A stretch of DNA of 64,000 nucleotides, from positions 372,001-436,000 of the forward strand of contig NC_011684.1 in NCBI RefSeq assembly GCF_000150955.2. The letters are read 5' to 3'. Origin of the DNA: Phaeodactylum tricornutum CCAP 1055/1. Lineage: Eukaryota > Bacillariophyta > Bacillariophyceae > Surirellales > Neidiaceae. The translations under genes and the position numbers were made by a program. The notes below the pieces were generated by a model. That model saw only the letters and a program-made list of their open reading frames with translations. It searched no databases and had not been told where the DNA came from. Each line of letters opens with the position of its first letter. The stretch's first letter is position 1. Of this stretch, positions 1-9,936 are shown one piece after another.

Positions 1-3000
1 GTATCAGCAAGTTTCGGCTCCGCTGTTGACGAGCTTTGTTGATGGCTACAACGCGACTGTACGTACTAGCTAGTTCGCCACCAGGTTTGCAGCACTGTTT
101 GCCTCACACCTCGAATTTGACATGCTTTCAGATTATGGCCTATGGGCAGACTGGTTCGGGAAAGACTTTTACGATGGGGAGCGAAGCTCACACCGAGCTG
201 GAAGTAGGAATTAACACCGGCTTGATTCCTCGCTTTATGCACGGACTTTTCACGAGTTTGCAAAGCAAAAAAGACGCTTCCGACCTCGAACACTCCAACA
301 ACAGCCTGATCGACTATCATCTGCAGGCTTCATTTCTGGAAGTCTACGGCGAAGATGTACACGATCTCTTGGATCCAAGGCGCCATTCTCTGCCTCTACG
401 AGAAGATTCCAGCGGCGCTATCGTTTGCAACGGGCTCACGCATCGGGGCGTACAGACAGCTCAAGAGGTCTTGAACGTGTTGCACGAGGGGACCTTGAAC
501 CGCACCACTGCCGCAACGCTCATGAACTTGACGAGTAGTCGATCCCACGCCGTTTTCACCGTCACTCTTGCACAAAAATACTGTCGAGATGGAGTGGACG
601 TATCGGTGAGCAGTCGCTTTACCTTTGTTGACCTGGCGGGCAGTGAAAGAATGAAAAAGACTGGAGCTCAGGGGGAACGCGCTCGGGAGGGTATCAAAAT
701 TAACGAAGGTCTTCTCGCGTTAGGAAATGTCATCAATGCTTTAGCAGAAAACAAGAAAGCTCACGTTCCCTACCGCCAGTCCAAACTGACGCGCTTGCTA
801 CAAGATGCTCTGGGTGGAAATAGCCAGACGCTCTTTTTGGCCTGCGTTTCACCATCGGACACAAACGCCTCCGAAACCTTATCCACTATGCACTACGCCA
901 ATCGGGCCCGCAATATTCAAAACGCTCCCGTGCAGAATATCGATGCGGGTTTGCTGGAGTTGCAGCGCTACAAGGCTCTGACACACGTGCTTCAAGCGGA
1001 ACTCGTCAAGAGAGCTTTCGGTGTGCTTAACGAGAACTCCAACGTCGGTGAGGTCGAAGATGTATTGCTGGAACGTCCAGACGTCGTAGAGTACCTGCAA
1101 CATCTACAAGCTGTGGCGCAGGAGAAGCAAGCCTCGGTGTGTGTGACTGTTTCCCCGTCAACAGCAGCTACTATGCAGATGACTTCACCACGTGCCAAGG
1201 GCAAGACTGTTTCCATTGTCCAGTATTCTTCCCCTCAACCAAATATTGCTCCTGGTGGATCAGACAGTGATAAATCGGTCTTGGAACAATTTGACTCGGC
1301 CTTTTTGGATGAAGTGAACCCAGATGAAGAAATGGCGATTCTCGATCAGCTCCTGGAGCTTCAACAACGCGACCACGAGTTTGGAAAGGAAAAGCAGAAG
1401 GATGATGCCGAACTCAAGCAAATGGAGGGCGAGCTGGCCGAGCAACAGACAATGCTTCTGCAATTGCGCGAAAGTCTTCGGGTATATCACGACATGAAAA
1501 TAAAATACGAAGCACTAATGGCAGAGGTTGGACAACTCGAGGCGGAAAAGGCGCAGTTAGCAGAACAGCTCGACAAGGCTGCAGCTGATCCGTCGAAAGG
1601 ATGCTCCAAGGCCATTAAAAAAGAGCTCGAAATGGTGGAACAGTCATTGGCTCGGGCGCGGAATGAAACTCGAAAGCACCGACAACTATATCGTAAGGCT
1701 GAACAGGAAGCACAAAGATGCAAAGTCATGGAACGCAAAATTTCGGAGCTTAAACATGGTCGAGCTAACTTGATAAAAAAGCAAAAAGAAGCCGCAACGC
1801 GACACCGAGAGTACACCGAAGCACGGACAAGAGAAATTGCAACTTTAAAACGGAAAGAACGTAACGCAGAGAAGCGTGTTGGCAAACTGCAGACTGAAGT
1901 CTCCGTCCACAAGAGGAACCTCGACAAACGGCAGACTTATATCACTAAACTGTCAACGAAGTTGAAGCAAACAGAGTCCCATTTGATGAAATTACTGTCG
2001 CTACGAAATCGAGAGCTTCGAGACCGTACTAGTGCGACGCCGCAAAACCGCCTTTCGCTTTGTCCAAGCGGTCGTCGGAGCTCGGTCGTTGTGAAAAAAA
2101 GTGGTGGAGAACATGAGTTTGCTTCGTTGAACGACGAAGTCATATCGTTGAAGTTCCTTATCGAAAGACTCGTTTCGGAGAGAGTGGGAAAAGTGGAAAT
2201 TCAAGCAGAATATGAACAAAAGGTTGCCGAATACAGTCTAACGATGCGATCGATGGTAGAAGCTGTGAAGGATCTAGAGGAATCACGGAACAGTCGCTCC
2301 GAGCGCTTAAGTAATGATACAGAGGAAATGGTCCAAGAACATGAGCACGCGGTAGGGGAACTAGAGCTAAAGGTTGAGCTACTTGGGTCAGACCTAGAGA
2401 ATCTCCAAACGCATCTTGATACGTTTGAAGACGGCGATGAAACTAAGAGTGGGTCAGAAGTCAAAAATCTTGTGGCCAACCAAAGTGCCCCAGTTCTTCG
2501 TACACTCCTCGTTGAGATTTGTGAAACTCTGACAGAAGCCGAGGTAGGTCGTGTATCACTTTTTGCTGAATCTCTGTAACAAATAAACTCACCGCTCATT
2601 TTTTAATAGATCGAACGAAAAAAAACTACGAATGCTGTAAGCCGAAAAGATTCCGCACTGCGATGTCTCGAAAACGAAGTTGATGCTCTCAACTCTCGAC
2701 TGTTCGTTTTTACGAGAGAGCTGGCTGACCAAAGGCGTACTTCCGACAGTCAAACGGATCCACTAGAGACACTTGCCACCATACAAGCCCAGAATCTCTC
2801 TCTTACTAATCAAATAGAAGACTTGGTACGGGAAAGGTCTTTTCTGACGACGCAAACTGCAGATCTCCTTAAGCGTTTGCAAGTTGTCGATTTGGATTGC
2901 TTTGATGCGAAGGAACGGCTAGCGATGATGGAGGTCGCCTTGGAGCAAGTGGATGGCGTAGCAATGCCAGACCAAGTCCTGACAAAGATGCAGTCCCTTT

Positions 3001-5075
3001 GGCGCGAACTCGGAGTCTCGATAGACTCAAGGGCCTGCGTTCATACCGAGATTGAAAACTGTTTGGCTGATACGTGTAGCCGGAAACTTCGGGAAGTCTC
3101 GGAGCTGAAGGCGACGACAGAGGCAGACATTCTTAAGCTGGAGCAAGAGCTGCTGTCGATGCAAGCCTCTCTTGGAATCACGCCATCCGTAGACACAAAA
3201 TTGGCGGAGTCTAGCCTGGTTGAAAAGCTTAGATCGCTTCGCCAGAAACATGCCGAGATTCGCCCTTCTTATGCTAATGCCGTCAAGCGTCGAGAACATT
3301 TCGCGAAGCAAGCTTCCGACCTATGTTCTGCGATGGAAATTAATGTGCAAGATTTACCCGCAGAGCTTCAGGATATCATTACTAAGACATCAACACCTGA
3401 AAGTGATCTGGCCTCTTGTCAGCTGAACGAGAATTTTCTTGATCAGTGCAATAAGGAAATTACGGCTCTTCGTGTCAAAAAGTCCGAGCGGCTCGTGAAG
3501 AATTCGGAGATCCATAAAAAGTGTTTTGTACTTTGTCGTGAAATGAACTTGATTGATTCAGATGTAGTCAGTCTTGTTACGCAGAGCGCAAGGCACCGGC
3601 TAAAAAGTCTTCCAGGATGGTGGACTTCCGACGCCATCAACTGCGTTTCCAGAGCTGTTGTTGCCGATGCCGGAGTCATTAGAACGACGTCTTCTTTTAC
3701 CAATCATCTTAACATGGTGCACGAGGCATTGGAAAAGATCTCGAAGAGCCGTCGTGCATTGTCTGATAGACTTCGCGACATCATCGAGCGAACTCAGAAA
3801 ACACTTCTCGAAACTGTTGAAGGAGAAGTCGAAGCGATCGACGCATACGCCAGCTTCCATGAAGCGCTTTTCCGTTTGCCTGCTCTGTCGAAAGAGTGCA
3901 TTCAGGCCTGTATTACAGAGGTCAAAGCCCTTGTACCGGGAGTGGAAGCTATGACTCAAAGCGAGATCGAAGCCCTTACCGTGGTGTGGGAGGCTTTGAG
4001 CGTATCCTCCGGCGACCGAGGCAATTTCTGGAGCAGAATAGAAGAAAATTCGACGGAAATGCAGGCACTAGTTCTACGCCCTTTCGACGAGCTTTTGACT
4101 TTGTCGGCGTGCGATGGGGAACAATGGATACTCTCTGCAGTCAAGGACGTTACCAATCAATTCGTCGAATTGGAGACTCGGCTCTTTAAACTTCAAAGTA
4201 TTCATGGCGAAGTTGAAAAGCTTCGGGCCAAACAGGAAGCCAAGAGCAGCATAATTTCACTTGATTCTGAGATTCGAATCCTTAGTGCAGAGCTAGCTGA
4301 ATTTGAAGACAGCCAGTGCAACAAACAACGCCTTTTAAGCAAGAAATCTGGTAGCTCCAACTTACTCAAGGAGGAGCGCTTTCGCAAACAGATGCAGGGA
4401 AAATTTGCCGCAAAACTTGAGCAACTCTCATCGTTACTGAAGGCTTGGCTCAGCGACGAAGGAACAAACTTCCATTCCAACCTTTTGAGTTATGAAGTCA
4501 GCTCACTTTTACAGAGCTCTGAACATATGGACACCTGGGTCGAGCAAAGGACCGAGTTTATGCACCTCCGTACTGTCCAGGCAAAAAGTGCAATGAAGAG
4601 ACCAAAGAGCGCTCAAGGGGAAGACCGTTTTTCACCGGTCAGTCGCAAACGCTCCGCTCGCTCCCAACTTCCCCAACCTGGTGAGTCAGTTTTGAAGAAG
4701 CCGAAGACTTCTGTGACGGATACTGCACAGCCACGACGACCTGCTACCTTCGCACGCGGTAGCAAGCGGAAGCCATCACCTGAAAACGTAGTGCCGACAC
4801 AGGCACGCCTTACGAAAGCTTCGCGAACAACACGCACAGCTTCATCTTCTTCCTCCTCCAGTCGAAGCGCATCACCTAGTCCGGGCAAAGATATGGCTAA
4901 GGTAAAGAACATCCGCCGACAGCCGCTATCCCCAAAGCGAGTCCAGAGGCAAACTGATTCAAAGGCCACCAAAGCAAATTCGAAGCGTTTGACGTTGCCG
5001 CCCTTTGGCCATGTTTTGGAGCAGGCGTCGACCCCACGAAACATGAGCAAGGAAAACAGCACCGACATTGACTGA
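1..5075 (+). CDS. Kinesin-4-like motor fused to a PRC1/Ase1/MAP65-like region (5' partial)
   Basis: The gene runs off the left edge. Visible exons are 1..58, 132..2543 and 2610..5075, joined by two phase-0 introns (59..131 GTACGT...TTTCAG; 2544..2609 GTAGGT...AATAG), giving about 1,640 visible residues. Exon 1 plus exon 2 read DGYNAT-IMAYGQTGSGKT, the kinesin P-loop. Switch I (SSRSHAVF), switch II (VDLAGSER) and the kinesin-4-type PYRQSKLTRLLQD follow by nt 830. Nt 1290-2870 encode long charged coiled coils. From about nt 2880 the protein resembles the MAP65/Ase1/PRC1 family: LWRELGVS (nt 2997), VVWEALSV (about 3980) and NLLKEERFRK (about 4360). The last 160 residues are basic and rich in Ser/Pro, with a KEN box at 5049..5057. 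Inference: an anaphase midzone motor carrying its own antiparallel microtubule bundler. The N-terminal motor start lies upstream of the window. The kinesin call is very secure; the MAP65 call is good. Confidence 0.9.
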
Positions 5076-5218: not shown

Positions 5219-6802
5219 TCATCGCAACCCCATATCATTCAGCCACACCATGAGAACGCAAACATTGTCGGCTGATCCACGGCGCATCGCTTCGCGGGCG
5301 ACGAACTTCGCCATATTCCTCCGGAGTACCAGTTTGTAGTTCTCGCGATCATCCTTGTGTAAGCTCTCTCGATCTAATTCCTGTTCCATCTGTCTATGCA
5401 CATAAGAGATAACATCCTGACTCGTCATGACATCCCACAACCCATCCGAAGCGAGTAAAAAGAATTCATCGTCTTGTTCCTGCACAGGATAGTGTTGAAT
5501 TTCGACTTGCCCAGATACGATGGGTTTGGCGTACCGATCGCCGATCGCTCGACTAAGACTCAGATTTCGGACTCGATGCACCTTGCTTATAAGATCCCAT
5601 TCAATTGTTTCGCCCATGGCCAAGATACGCGCCTTCTCGCGATCATCATTTGGTTTGTGGTCTCGCGTGAGATCAACGGCGTTTTGATTACGCGACAAGA
5701 TAGCCCGACTATCGCCAACGTTAGCCGACAGCAAAGTTCGCTTTCCTTCTTCCGATTCATGTACGACCACCACCACAGCTGTGCTTCCTTGATATTGCAA
5801 GCCATCATCTTCCAGAACATCCTGCTCCATTTCGTCGAAGGCATCCCGTAAGGCTGCCACGTGCGAAAGCACCGAACTCGCATCGGTCAATTCGTGTTGT
5901 TTGCGTGCGAGGGCGGCGCAAGTTTTGTTGTACAAATTAACCCGTAGCCGCTGGCTGACTCCTCCACCCCCGTGTCCGTCAAAGACACCAGCAAAACGGC
6001 CGCCGTTGGCTACTACGTATTCGTCTTCCATGGTCATGCGGCCTCCTTGAAGTGCGCGGACCGAAACCTGCAGGGTCCGGACAAGAAACAACCGCACAGA
6101 ATAACGAAGAGGTCAGCAACTCAGTGAATAAATGAATACACGAAAAGCCATTCTCTGGGACGCAAATTCACTTACATCGTACGGTTTCTGACGCACACTT
6201 CCTCTCGTAACAGAGTTGCCACCCAATTGTACTACGGTAGCTGTTTCTATAGAACTCGCTGGATTTTCGGTGGTACTAGCACTAGTGGCAGCAGCAGATA
6301 TAGACAAAGCCTTCCGGTTCGGTGATTTCGAGGGGCAATGCTCGCCGATCGAGTGCGCGACATCGGCGAACACGAGCGAGCCCAAGATACCGTTCGTCCC
6401 TTTGCCGTCCCCATCGTTACCTCCGCCGCCGTGCGATACCAACTTTGTGGGTTCAGACCAAATTGAAGAGACAACGAGTTGAGCAGGACTGTTTGGTGCA
6501 GGAATAGTGTGGTTATGGGGATCTTCAGAGGTAGCAGTAGTTGTGGGAAACGCCAAGACTAAGACGCTAGTAGTTAAGAGAGCCAGCGCGCTGGCGACGA
6601 TTACTTCAGTGCATCGTGAATTCACTGGACGGTGGATGTAAAGTGACAATGAAGATACAGAGTTCGAGGAAAACCACACTTTCACTGATTGATGGGTTGC
6701 CCAGCTTGAATTAGCTGCCTCGAGCCCACGTACTCGTCTTTGTGCTACCAACGACGGGGAAGTGAATCGAGAGGAAGAGAGATGCGCCAGACGGTAGCTC
6801 AT
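5219..6802 (-). CDS. PP2C-family Ser/Thr phosphatase with N-terminal membrane segment
   Basis: Two exons, complement(join(5219..6067,6176..6802)); the 108-bp phase-0 intron joins QKPYD to VSVRALQGG. The product is 491 residues. All PP2C metal-binding blocks are present in exon 2: MTMEDEY, VFDGHGGGG, NVGDSRAILSR, LSLSRAIGDRYAKP, LLASDGLWDVM and SADNVCVLM. It should be a Mg/Mn-dependent protein phosphatase. The exon 1 product is low complexity except for a strongly hydrophobic stretch at residues 65-86, probably a signal anchor, so the enzyme is likely membrane-tethered. The start is the first ATG (6802); the frame continues upstream only with non-ATG codons. It lies tail to tail with the kinesin gene, 143 bp away. 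Substrate and compartment cannot be read from sequence. Confidence 0.93.
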
Positions 6803-7871: not shown

Positions 7872-9251
7872 TTACTTCAAAAAGGCACTCTCCGCCTTGC
7901 AATCCATATCAATCGCTAAAACCCGGGCTCCTTCCGCCGGTTCTGTCAAAAAGCACTCGGCTTGTTTCCCATACTTGGCTTCGTAAGATGATTGTAAATG
8001 CTTTATGAGTCCTTCGACAACTCGGCGTTGAACGAAAGTGACCGTACAACCGCCAAAACCGCCGCCGGTCATGCGGGAACCGTACACACCTTCGTACGCC
8101 TGAGCTACTTCGACGAGATAGTCAACTTCTTCACAGCTTACTTCGTACTCGTCTCGCAAGCTTGCGTGGGACGCATTCATAAGTTCTCCAACATGATCCC
8201 ACAGTCCCATTTTCAGAGCAACCTTGCACTCTTTGGTGCGAACATTTTCGTTAACGACGTGGAGAGCTCGATGGTAAGAAATCTTATTCATCTTAGCTTC
8301 GGCCTCTTTCACGTCATCCTTAGTGGCGTCTCGCAGAGAAAGTACGTGGTAGAGCGGAATGGACTGCATTGCTAGGAGCGCATCGTGACACTGGGCTCGT
8401 CGGATCCCATACTCGGAATCGGCAATGCTGTGCGTGACCTTTGAGTTGGTGATAAGAATAACGGGATCTTCTGGTGTATTTGCTTTCATAGTGACGTGTT
8501 CAATTTCCAGTGATTGGCAGTCAATGAGCATAAGTTTGCCGACTTGGGCGGCAGACGAGGCTAGTTGATCCATGATACCGCATGGCGAATGTGCCCAATC
8601 GTTTTCGGCTTTCTGACAACGTAACGCGCGTTCCTTTCGAATATCCTTTTCTTTGGCGGAGGAATAGGCCATATTTTCCGGCAGGAAGCATTCGAAGAAT
8701 GTCGCGACTGCAACTTCGAGCGATGCCGAACTGGACAGACCGGAGCTCAAAGGAACATCGCTAGCAATGGCCATAGACAGGTCTATAGTGCACCCTTCTT
8801 TGGGAAGATCGTGCATGTACTGTTGTACTACCCCGACTACGTAGTTGACCCATGATCGCGGTTCATCCGCATCTGGTGGACGACTTGTGCCGTTCAGCCG
8901 GCGTTCTTCAACAATACTTCCGTTAAGGGCCTTTTCGGAAATGAGTCGCAGACGCATCGACGTCGGTCCATTGCCCTTGCCGGTATGGCAAAAGCCGGTT
9001 CCGTAAATCACGGTGGAAAAGTCGATGGCCAAGGGTAAGACAAATCCACCCGTGTAATCGACGTGCTCGCCAATTAAATTGACCCGTCCTGGTGCCGCCA
9101 CCACGTACGCCGGGGGTTTGTGGTCCTGCACAAAGGAGGAAAGGTGTTTCTGGTACAAGCCCTTGGCGGAGTCTACAAGAGTCTGCAAGTTCGGTGCCAA
9201 CGAAGCCTTGGCTATCTTGGGAGGCAACGCCGTACTCGCAGAATCCGTCAT
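7872..9251 (-). CDS. Galactokinase (GHMP kinase)
   Basis: Single exon, 459 residues from the ATG at 9251. The frame stays open a further 102 codons upstream without looking conserved, and its upstream codons include no better start next to the family N-terminus. It phosphorylates galactose at C1 with ATP, the first step of the Leloir pathway. Motif 1, the galactokinase signature (GRVNLIGEHVDYTGG, residues 55-69), is complete. GHMP motif 2 (PLSSGLSSSASLE) and motif 3 (GSRMTGGGFGGCTV) are also intact, as is the CGIMDQLASSA segment containing the catalytic Asp. Length fits the eukaryotic enzyme. No targeting peptide is obvious, so it is presumably cytosolic. It is divergent from the MATE transporter gene with 685 bp between the starts. 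Confidence 0.95.
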   Translation of the reverse strand: MTDSASTALPPKIAKASLAPNLQTLVDSAKGLYQKHLSSFVQDHKPPAYVVAAPGRVNLIGEHVDYTGGFVLPLAIDFSTVIYGTGFCHTGKGNGPTSMRLRLISEKALNGSIVEERRLNGTSRPPDADEPRSWVNYVVGVVQQYMHDLPKEGCTIDLSMAIASDVPLSSGLSSSASLEVAVATFFECFLPENMAYSSAKEKDIRKERALRCQKAENDWAHSPCGIMDQLASSAAQVGKLMLIDCQSLEIEHVTMKANTPEDPVILITNSKVTHSIADSEYGIRRAQCHDALLAMQSIPLYHVLSLRDATKDDVKEAEAKMNKISYHRALHVVNENVRTKECKVALKMGLWDHVGELMNASHASLRDEYEVSCEEVDYLVEVAQAYEGVYGSRMTGGGFGGCTVTFVQRRVVEGLIKHLQSSYEAKYGKQAECFLTEPAEGARVLAIDMDCKAESAFLK

Positions 9252-9936
9252 GCTTGAGACACTGCAATCGATCAGGGTTCTGATGTCAAGTATTGAGTGG
9301 TACAAGCAAGAAAGAACGTGAGAGGTCAACGGAGAAGAGTCTTTCCAAGTTGCAAAAGCCCAAACCTCCAAGAGACAGGCGAGTTCCTTCCAAAAGATTT
9401 TCGGTTGGCGTCGCAAAGCAGAAACGTCAAGGTAAAATACCCAGCGGTGATTGGTCGTTGGCGGGTAGCAGTCATTGATGACGCCGCTAGCGCTCGGGAA
9501 TCGATACATCCCTGGGACTTGAAATGCGTTTCTTTGAAAATTGAGAGTGAGTCGCATATAATGCAGCTTTGTGTTCCCGATTGGTCAGTGTACAATCAAC
9601 CACTACTTGTCGTGCGTGCTCAGATTCTACGGCGGTAACATTAACATGACATAAATTCAAATGTTTATGACTGTGACAGCATTCGGGTCGCGCATCGTGA
9701 AATGCCCCCCTACCCTCTCGCCTAGCTAATAGAGTTTTCTTTACAATCAGGTGCATTTCAACGATGACAGGAGATGACTAAATGTGAAAAGGGACTCGCA
9801 CAAAGAAAAAGGAACAAACAGATACCAACGGAAGCTCTCGAGCACCATTCCGTCATCAATTCAATGTACAGCATATTTCTTGGTTCCTAGTATTGTTTTG
9901 TGGAATGCATTGTGCGTAACTGTCTTTTTAGGAATT
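9252..9936. promoter_or_regulatory. Shared divergent upstream region of galactokinase and MATE genes
   Basis: The 685 bp between two divergent ATGs must contain both promoters. A pyrimidine-rich CTGTCTTTTTAG ends at 9931, just before the MATE ATG at 9937. It resembles a splice acceptor, so a 5'-UTR intron is possible. No specific factor site can be named. Confidence 0.4.

Follow-up and report, generated by a model that had tools for sequence, protein, structure and literature searches.

Are a kinesin-4 motor and a microtubule bundler of the PRC1/Ase1/MAP65 family encoded as one protein in the diatom Phaeodactylum tricornutum? The question is raised by the first 5075 bases of a 64,000-nucleotide stretch of its genome (C16:372001-436000; below, the window means this whole stretch), for which a preliminary description had proposed a natural fusion of the two partners. 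The answer is yes. The gene, on the + strand, has three exons and encodes a 1712-residue protein composed, from N- to C-terminus, of a kinesin-4 motor, a long coiled coil, a divergent MAP65/Ase1/PRC1 module and a basic tail. Pfam matches, a PDB profile search topped by PRC1, a motor tree and the finding of both halves in 58 of 106 relatives all bear out the proposed one-protein fusion, and we are almost certain that it exists and is conserved. The genome searched comprised 27.45 Mb in 88 contigs. Features of the gene are given below, in window positions unless stated otherwise (window base 1 is L004:5001).

L004:4798-5058 (window part 1..58), + strand: exon 1, start of the motor, with its ATG 202 bases upstream of window base 1
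59..131, + strand: intron 1, GT...AG, phase 0
132..2543, + strand: exon 2, remaining kinesin-4 motor (Pfam Kinesin ~135-917), neck and long coiled coil
~1359-1859, + strand: Pfam KIF21A_4th match within the exon 2 coiled coil
2544..2609, + strand: intron 2, GT...AG, phase 0, 66 bases, separating the motor/coil half from the MAP65 half
2610..5075, + strand: exon 3, coding for the last part of the coiled coil, the MAP65/Ase1/PRC1-like module and the basic tail, with the stop
2973..4475, + strand: Pfam MAP65_ASE1 match, profile positions 2-415 of 477
4320..4388, + strand: basic cluster NKQRLLSKKSGSSNLLKEERFRK, conserved and in alignment with the LLKEE stretch of PRC1
4587..5072, + strand: basic, probably disordered C-terminal tail of 162 residues (36 K/R, 11 D/E)
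5001..5018, + strand: tail motif PFGHVL, an instance of the conserved pattern PF(G/A)x1-3L
5049..5057, + strand: KEN box near the C-terminus, conserved in complete tails

Exon 1, within which the window begins, had been overlooked in the preliminary description; it is supported by a match of Kinesin profile positions 1-78 to C16:371861-372061. The positions and phase given there for intron 2 and the coordinates of exon 3 were exact. Intron 2 has the borders GCCGAG/GTAGGT...TAATAG/ATCGAA and a GC content of 35%, compared with 49% in exons 2 and 3, and without its splicing the motor frame runs into a stop at 2577-2579. Exon 3 reads open for 821 codons plus the stop, and its earliest in-frame ATG is found only at 2925, in agreement with the 822 codons without a nearby start that had been described; the MAP65-like segments LWRELGVS, VVWEALSV and NLLKEERFRK quoted at that time are all present in it.

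The motor half

Exon 2 matches the Pfam families Kinesin (2.5e-86) and KIF21A_4th (PF25764; 3.1e-12, 47 bits against a cut-off of 33.1), and the P-loop, switch I and switch II motifs are all present in the motor core of the fusion protein. SSRSH and DLAGSE are found in every one of 56 aligned motors, the fusion protein's own included, and GQTGSGKT in 44 of them; among the other 12, P0018 has GQTSSGKT, P0019 begins after the P-loop and 10 have no visible P-loop. The PDB ranking is headed by KIF4 (5.2e-69), next come 7x4n (termed a kinesin-like protein in its PDB record and presumably KLP-12) and KIF7, and kinesin-1 follows after them.

A motor tree of 29 rows, four of them outside references, was calculated with 11 of the 59 available fusion motors (48 were left out), and long branches among other kinesins were flagged by the program. 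All 11 cluster as a single clade (100/99), nested in a wider group (95/88) together with KIF4, 7x4n and Pt_L007, an unfused kinesin-4 of the same genome; KIF7 comes next (92/84). Inside the fusion clade three Parmales-type sequences split from eight diatom sequences (92/76 and 99/94), which fits descent from a common ancestor. Pfam, PDB ranking and tree agree in supporting assignment of the motor half to the kinesin-4 group, and the kinesin-4-type motor with coiled coil of the preliminary description is thereby confirmed.

A Cys-rich, DNA-binding chromokinesin tail is a trait of the KIF4 subgroup only. The Pfam matches of the fusion protein, from a database that may or may not hold a model of the Cys-rich/DNA-binding tail, include no tail domain besides MAP65. 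At most, this would argue against the label "KIF4 orthologue", and it leaves kinesin-4 membership intact. With the kinesin-4 family (KIF4, KLP-12, KIF21, KIF7 and the unfused gene at C4:1244405-1245466) the fusion shares the N-terminal motor and a KIF21A-like coiled-coil domain, whereas the MAP65 module takes the place of the usual tail.

The MAP65 half

The preliminary description had made the fusion depend on a significant MAP65 match of exon 3, and the Pfam hidden Markov model MAP65_ASE1 (PF03999) does match it at 2.6e-9, with 36.8 bits against a curated cut-off of 26.9. An NCBIfam search returned no informative family. A family profile built from 32 relatives was compared with 177,635 PDB sequences, and PRC1 (4l3i) was the best match (E 2.3e-4), in two collinear stretches covering residues 19-260 and 370-426. 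The next match, to an unrelated chain, was at 0.015, and this one and the 16 that follow it are taken as chance.

In hhalign the family profile aligned with the canonical MAP65 of the same genome over 447 columns (residues 119-655, counted in window-sequence columns) with a score of 57.6. Controls scored far lower: 26.5 for the reversed sequence, 21.6 for the protein's own exon-2 coiled coil, 21.1 and 20.4 for two probable tail exons of Pt_L007, 21.4 for the best of 60 register-keeping shuffles and 24.7 for the best of 60 full shuffles. Since no control exceeded 26.5, the MAP65 half is homologous to MAP65 across most of its length. An explanation of the similarity as that of a generic coiled coil was rejected on the same grounds, and also because the exon-2 protein (803 residues, with the long coiled coil) has no MAP65 match at E<=1. 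The tool's own profile alignment with the canonical protein gave a probability of 90.5 and E 1.4e-6.

These comparisons support the view of the second half as a divergent MAP65/Ase1/PRC1 module, collinear from the dimerization region via the rod to the spectrin domain. Besides this collinearity, the basic cluster with LLKEE and a basic tail are shared with the MAP65/Ase1/PRC1 family (C1:2096451-2097893; PRC1 4l3i), from which the fusion differs in its strong divergence and in having a kinesin motor and coiled coil placed before the MAP65 module.

Relatives and continuity across the junction

Relatives were collected by three protein searches, each scoring about 8000 candidates with the most shared words. 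The resulting 106 proteins comprise 58 with motor and MAP65, 45 with MAP65 only and three with the motor only, so that the search of other diatoms suggested in the preliminary description did recover the same architecture. Both halves were found in the named diatoms Seminavis, Fistulifera, Extubocellulus, Epithemia, Nitzschia (two) and Chaetoceros and in a Bacillariaceae metagenome-assembled genome (MAG), and under the non-diatom labels Kryptoperidinium, Triparma pacifica and T. verrucosa (Parmales, Bolidophyceae). Kryptoperidinium is a dinoflagellate carrying a diatom endosymbiont, and Parmales are the sister group of diatoms. The architecture, with both halves assigned by sequence, is thus present in diatoms and Parmales. 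The lineage originally claimed for it holds as far as diatoms are concerned, but the fusion is not restricted to them, as Triparma carries it too. MAP65-only entries include Mayamaea (P0008), Fragilaria (P0026), T. columacea (P0075) and a second Bacillariaceae MAG protein (P0098).

Some relatives are labelled "kinesin family member 4/21/27" in databases, and on some of them the Pfam domains Kinesin and MAP65 are both precomputed, so the fusion architecture was already visible there. One source names family members (P0009, P0017) "DNA repair exonuclease SbcCD ATPase subunit", probably a misannotation of the coiled coil.

A check of transcripts joining exons 2 and 3 had been called for, and its outcome is positive in relatives. 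We take an MMETSP label to denote a transcriptome. P0018 (Extubocellulus, MMETSP0696) and P0049 (Triparma pacifica), both transcriptome-labelled, run unbroken across the junction from near the motor start, as does P0031 (Kryptoperidinium, MMETSP0120) from a start within the motor; in P0090, with an mmetsp label, coil and MAP65 are present but most of the motor is missing. Altogether 72 aligned sequences span the junction, the fusion protein itself counted. Five of them (P0006, P0007, P0009, P0019, P0067) have an insertion of 23-46 residues after residue 891 or 892, which is the position of intron 2, as would be expected from an unspliced intron there. The stretch before the first ATG of exon 3 has an occupancy of 0.97-0.99 and an identity of 0.19-0.29 in relatives.

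Twelve of the 45 MAP65-only proteins start in aligned positions 885-925, by the start of exon 3, and the motor-only P0074 ends in AEVRIVFY, directly past the junction. Many MAP65-only entries therefore look like gene calls made without splicing, and, judged from their protein sequences, the fragments were rejected as standalone orthologues, none of them being demonstrated as such.

Unfused partners and other kinesins in the genome

A genome profile search revealed at least two MAP65 places, the fusion gene and C1. The latter is the canonical MAP65 at C1:2096451-2097893 (3.4e-66; PRC1 4.1e-23), and the unfused kinesin-4 (L007, i.e. Pt_L007) lies at C4:1244405-1245466 on the - strand, with KIF4 as its best PDB match (2.6e-80). 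Open frames downstream of Pt_L007 (L028, probable exons) have background scores against the MAP65 profile. As these two separate genes are retained in the genome, the fusion is a third component beside the usual two, and its interpretation as a replacement of the separate partners was rejected.

A probable downstream exon of Pt_L007 (L028:1653-3335, - strand) contains the repeats SVFDRLxxPxxxTGxQK and DVFERLQKTTTxxYA, each twice. Neighbouring kinesin genes at C9:614739-615659 and C9:618869-619735 are paired in the motor tree (100/98), one of them with a long branch, and probably represent a local duplication. One other kinesin of the genome matched KIFC1 in the PDB; PDB searches with two more had no match at the strict threshold.

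Conserved residues and tail motifs

Among 40 sequences longer than 1450 residues, mean identity to the fusion protein is 0.62-0.90 in the motor (251-350), the coil (551-650) and the MAP65 blocks 1301-1350 and 1451-1500, and 0.19-0.29 in residues 851-1000 around the junction. Within the basic cluster NKQRLLSKKSGSSNLLKEERFRK (104 rows), R1465 is found in 104/104, K1478 is K in 80 and R in 10, and R1481 is R in 68 and K in 33. The first two presumably correspond to the microtubule-binding PRC1 residues R377 and K387, on which we found no paper in the open-access literature.

The tail carries four [ST]P sites, each with K/R close behind. KEN occurs within the last 60 residues of 69 of the 88 complete tails (shuffle mean 2.1, maximum 7) and PF(G/A)x1-3L in 76 of them (shuffle mean 0.29, maximum 3), figures that measure conservation and are not independent trials, the rows being kin. 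Complete tails were picked by a pattern; counted on a smaller protein set, KEN is found in 51/65 and PF(G/A)x1-3L in 55/65. In 69 tails of all proteins KEN lies 3-23 residues after PF(G/A)x1-3L (median 7). The KEN box is a degron of the anaphase-promoting complex/cyclosome, and we know of no function for the PF(G/A)x1-3L motif.

Proposed function

In our model the MAP65 half would bind and bundle antiparallel microtubules and the motor half would step toward plus ends, so that the joined protein would gather where antiparallel microtubules of the central spindle overlap, and there it would slide them and/or limit plus-end growth and thereby set overlap length. It would be a permanent counterpart of the binding of Kif4A to PRC1 in animals, with the order kept, motor C-terminus to bundler N-terminus. 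According to one paper, the C-terminus of Kif4A, which showed no strong microtubule binding of its own, is thought to associate with the N-terminus of PRC1, and antiparallel microtubules are slid by the pair up to the collision of end-tags (PMC6200392); in another, kinesins bind the dimerization/rod domain of PRC1 (PMC10620760). The animal pair belongs to the same two families and has the same contact order (kinesin-4 C-terminus to PRC1 N-terminus/dimerization-rod; PMC6200392, PMC10620760). It is encoded by two genes and depends on a regulated hydrophobic-motif interaction, whereas the fusion is one polypeptide with a fixed 1:1 stoichiometry and no recruitment step to regulate. More tentatively, the [ST]P sites may act as a phosphorylation switch for cyclin-dependent kinases, and the C-terminal KEN box may lead to destruction after mitosis. 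Overall, the fusion protein probably works as a joined motor-bundler on overlapping antiparallel microtubules.

Several points weigh against this view. The MAP65 half is divergent: the second PRC1 stretch (370-426) has an independent E-value (i-E) of 0.99 when taken alone, the tool's own alignment with the canonical MAP65 covers only 144 columns (19% identity), and a phmmer search with the single exon-3 sequence finds nothing in the PDB at E<=1. Pfam MAP65 is matched at E<=0.01 in 23 of the 32 profile members, leaving nine short of it, and the 36.8 bits of the fusion compare with 226 for the canonical paralogue. The geometry of joining is a difficulty, as the motor's coiled coil is parallel and the MAP65 dimer antiparallel. 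The cell also has both separate proteins; with these present and the diatom kinesin DSK1 already published, the fusion need not be the main motor of the midzone.

In a rival reading the fusion is real, but its MAP65 half no longer bundles antiparallel microtubules and serves instead as a microtubule-tethering or structural tail, the kinesin-4 having its role in cytoplasmic arrays, on chromosome arms, at the microtubule centre, in valve formation or at some other place. The divergence of the MAP65 half and the retention of a canonical MAP65 for ordinary bundling would fit this. We consider it unlikely, given that homology extends from the PRC1 dimerization/rod region to the spectrin-domain region, that the basic cluster is conserved and that the KEN box suggests cell-cycle control. 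Less probable still is an adaptor motor, in which the MAP65 part would pair mainly with the canonical MAP65 and deliver the motor to overlaps made by this ordinary crosslinker. This reading is favoured by the region aligned with the PRC1 dimerization domain, which is kept, and by the presence of both MAP65 proteins in one genome; the two are, however, far diverged (the 19% identity over 144 columns given above), and the conserved basic cluster is what a direct microtubule binder would need. That a motor gene ends inside intron 2 and a MAP65 gene begins in exon 3 (ATG 2925), as the stop in the unspliced frame, the start of the MAP65 match 3' of this first ATG and the 45/106 MAP65-only and 3/106 motor-only predictions might suggest, was rejected as a very remote prospect, because the relatives, three transcriptome-labelled ones and the 72 spanning sequences among them, read on across the junction, the stretch before the ATG is kept in them, though weakly conserved, and the 12/45 starts and one motor-only end near the junction fit calling without splicing.

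The fusion and the diatom spindle

In vitro tests of the sliding model were made with the near-crystalline diatom spindle. Judging by its title, a 1998 paper of Wein et al. reportedly presents DSK1 as a diatom kinesin of anaphase spindle elongation and of the spindle matrix. According to a 2016 review, isolated diatom spindles lengthen by sliding and are inhibited by a pan-kinesin antibody, from which a sliding kinesin is inferred, and the matrix that anchors kinesin is speculated to contain Ase1, Wein et al. 1998 being cited for DSK1 in this matrix (PMC5192431). The fusion, if it acts there, would put kinesin and Ase1 into one molecule.

DSK1 is, like the fusion, a diatom kinesin. In another paper it is placed in a tree with kinesin-14 proteins (PMC5680195), and is therefore probably a kinesin other than the fusion. 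As DSK1 is already published, the fusion is a further candidate for the diatom spindle and not the first. It is possible, although we regard it as doubtful, that the fusion serves the diatom central spindle both as a main sliding motor and as a component of its matrix; as a covalent slider-crosslinker predating the diatom/Parmales split, it would drive or meter anaphase B with or beside DSK1.

Among the matches listed from the open-access literature, none describes a kinesin-MAP65 fusion as far as titles, the openings of abstracts and selected passages show, subscription papers lying mostly outside this search. The part of Richardson et al. 2006 that was covered lists one family-4 row in its Table 7, the Thalassiosira pseudonana kinesin-4 gene 119229, with 340 residues and no extra domain, and contains the authors' remark that diatom gene models are short (PMC1434745). 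Gene 119229 is probably either a member of the fusion family or the unfused paralogue. The fusion also suggests that an architecture of this kind can escape kinesin surveys whose gene models are short.

As a candidate component of the diatom central spindle the fusion is conserved and open to test, and its fixed stoichiometry makes reconstitution easier than that of the two-protein system. Two midzone partners whose interaction is regulated in animals have here been tied together with their presumed order of binding kept. Evolution thereby hints that their contact is the functional unit.

Neighbouring genes

The fusion gene lies tail to tail with a protein phosphatase 2C gene (window 5222-6112, - strand; PF00481, 2.7e-48), and a galactokinase-like GHMP kinase is encoded at window 7875-9584 (- strand). 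On its other side it lies head to head with a class III guanylate/adenylate cyclase fragment (L004:1544-2215, - strand; PF00211) and with an open frame directly upstream of this fragment on the same strand (L004:2405-3445), which has no Pfam match at E<=0.001.

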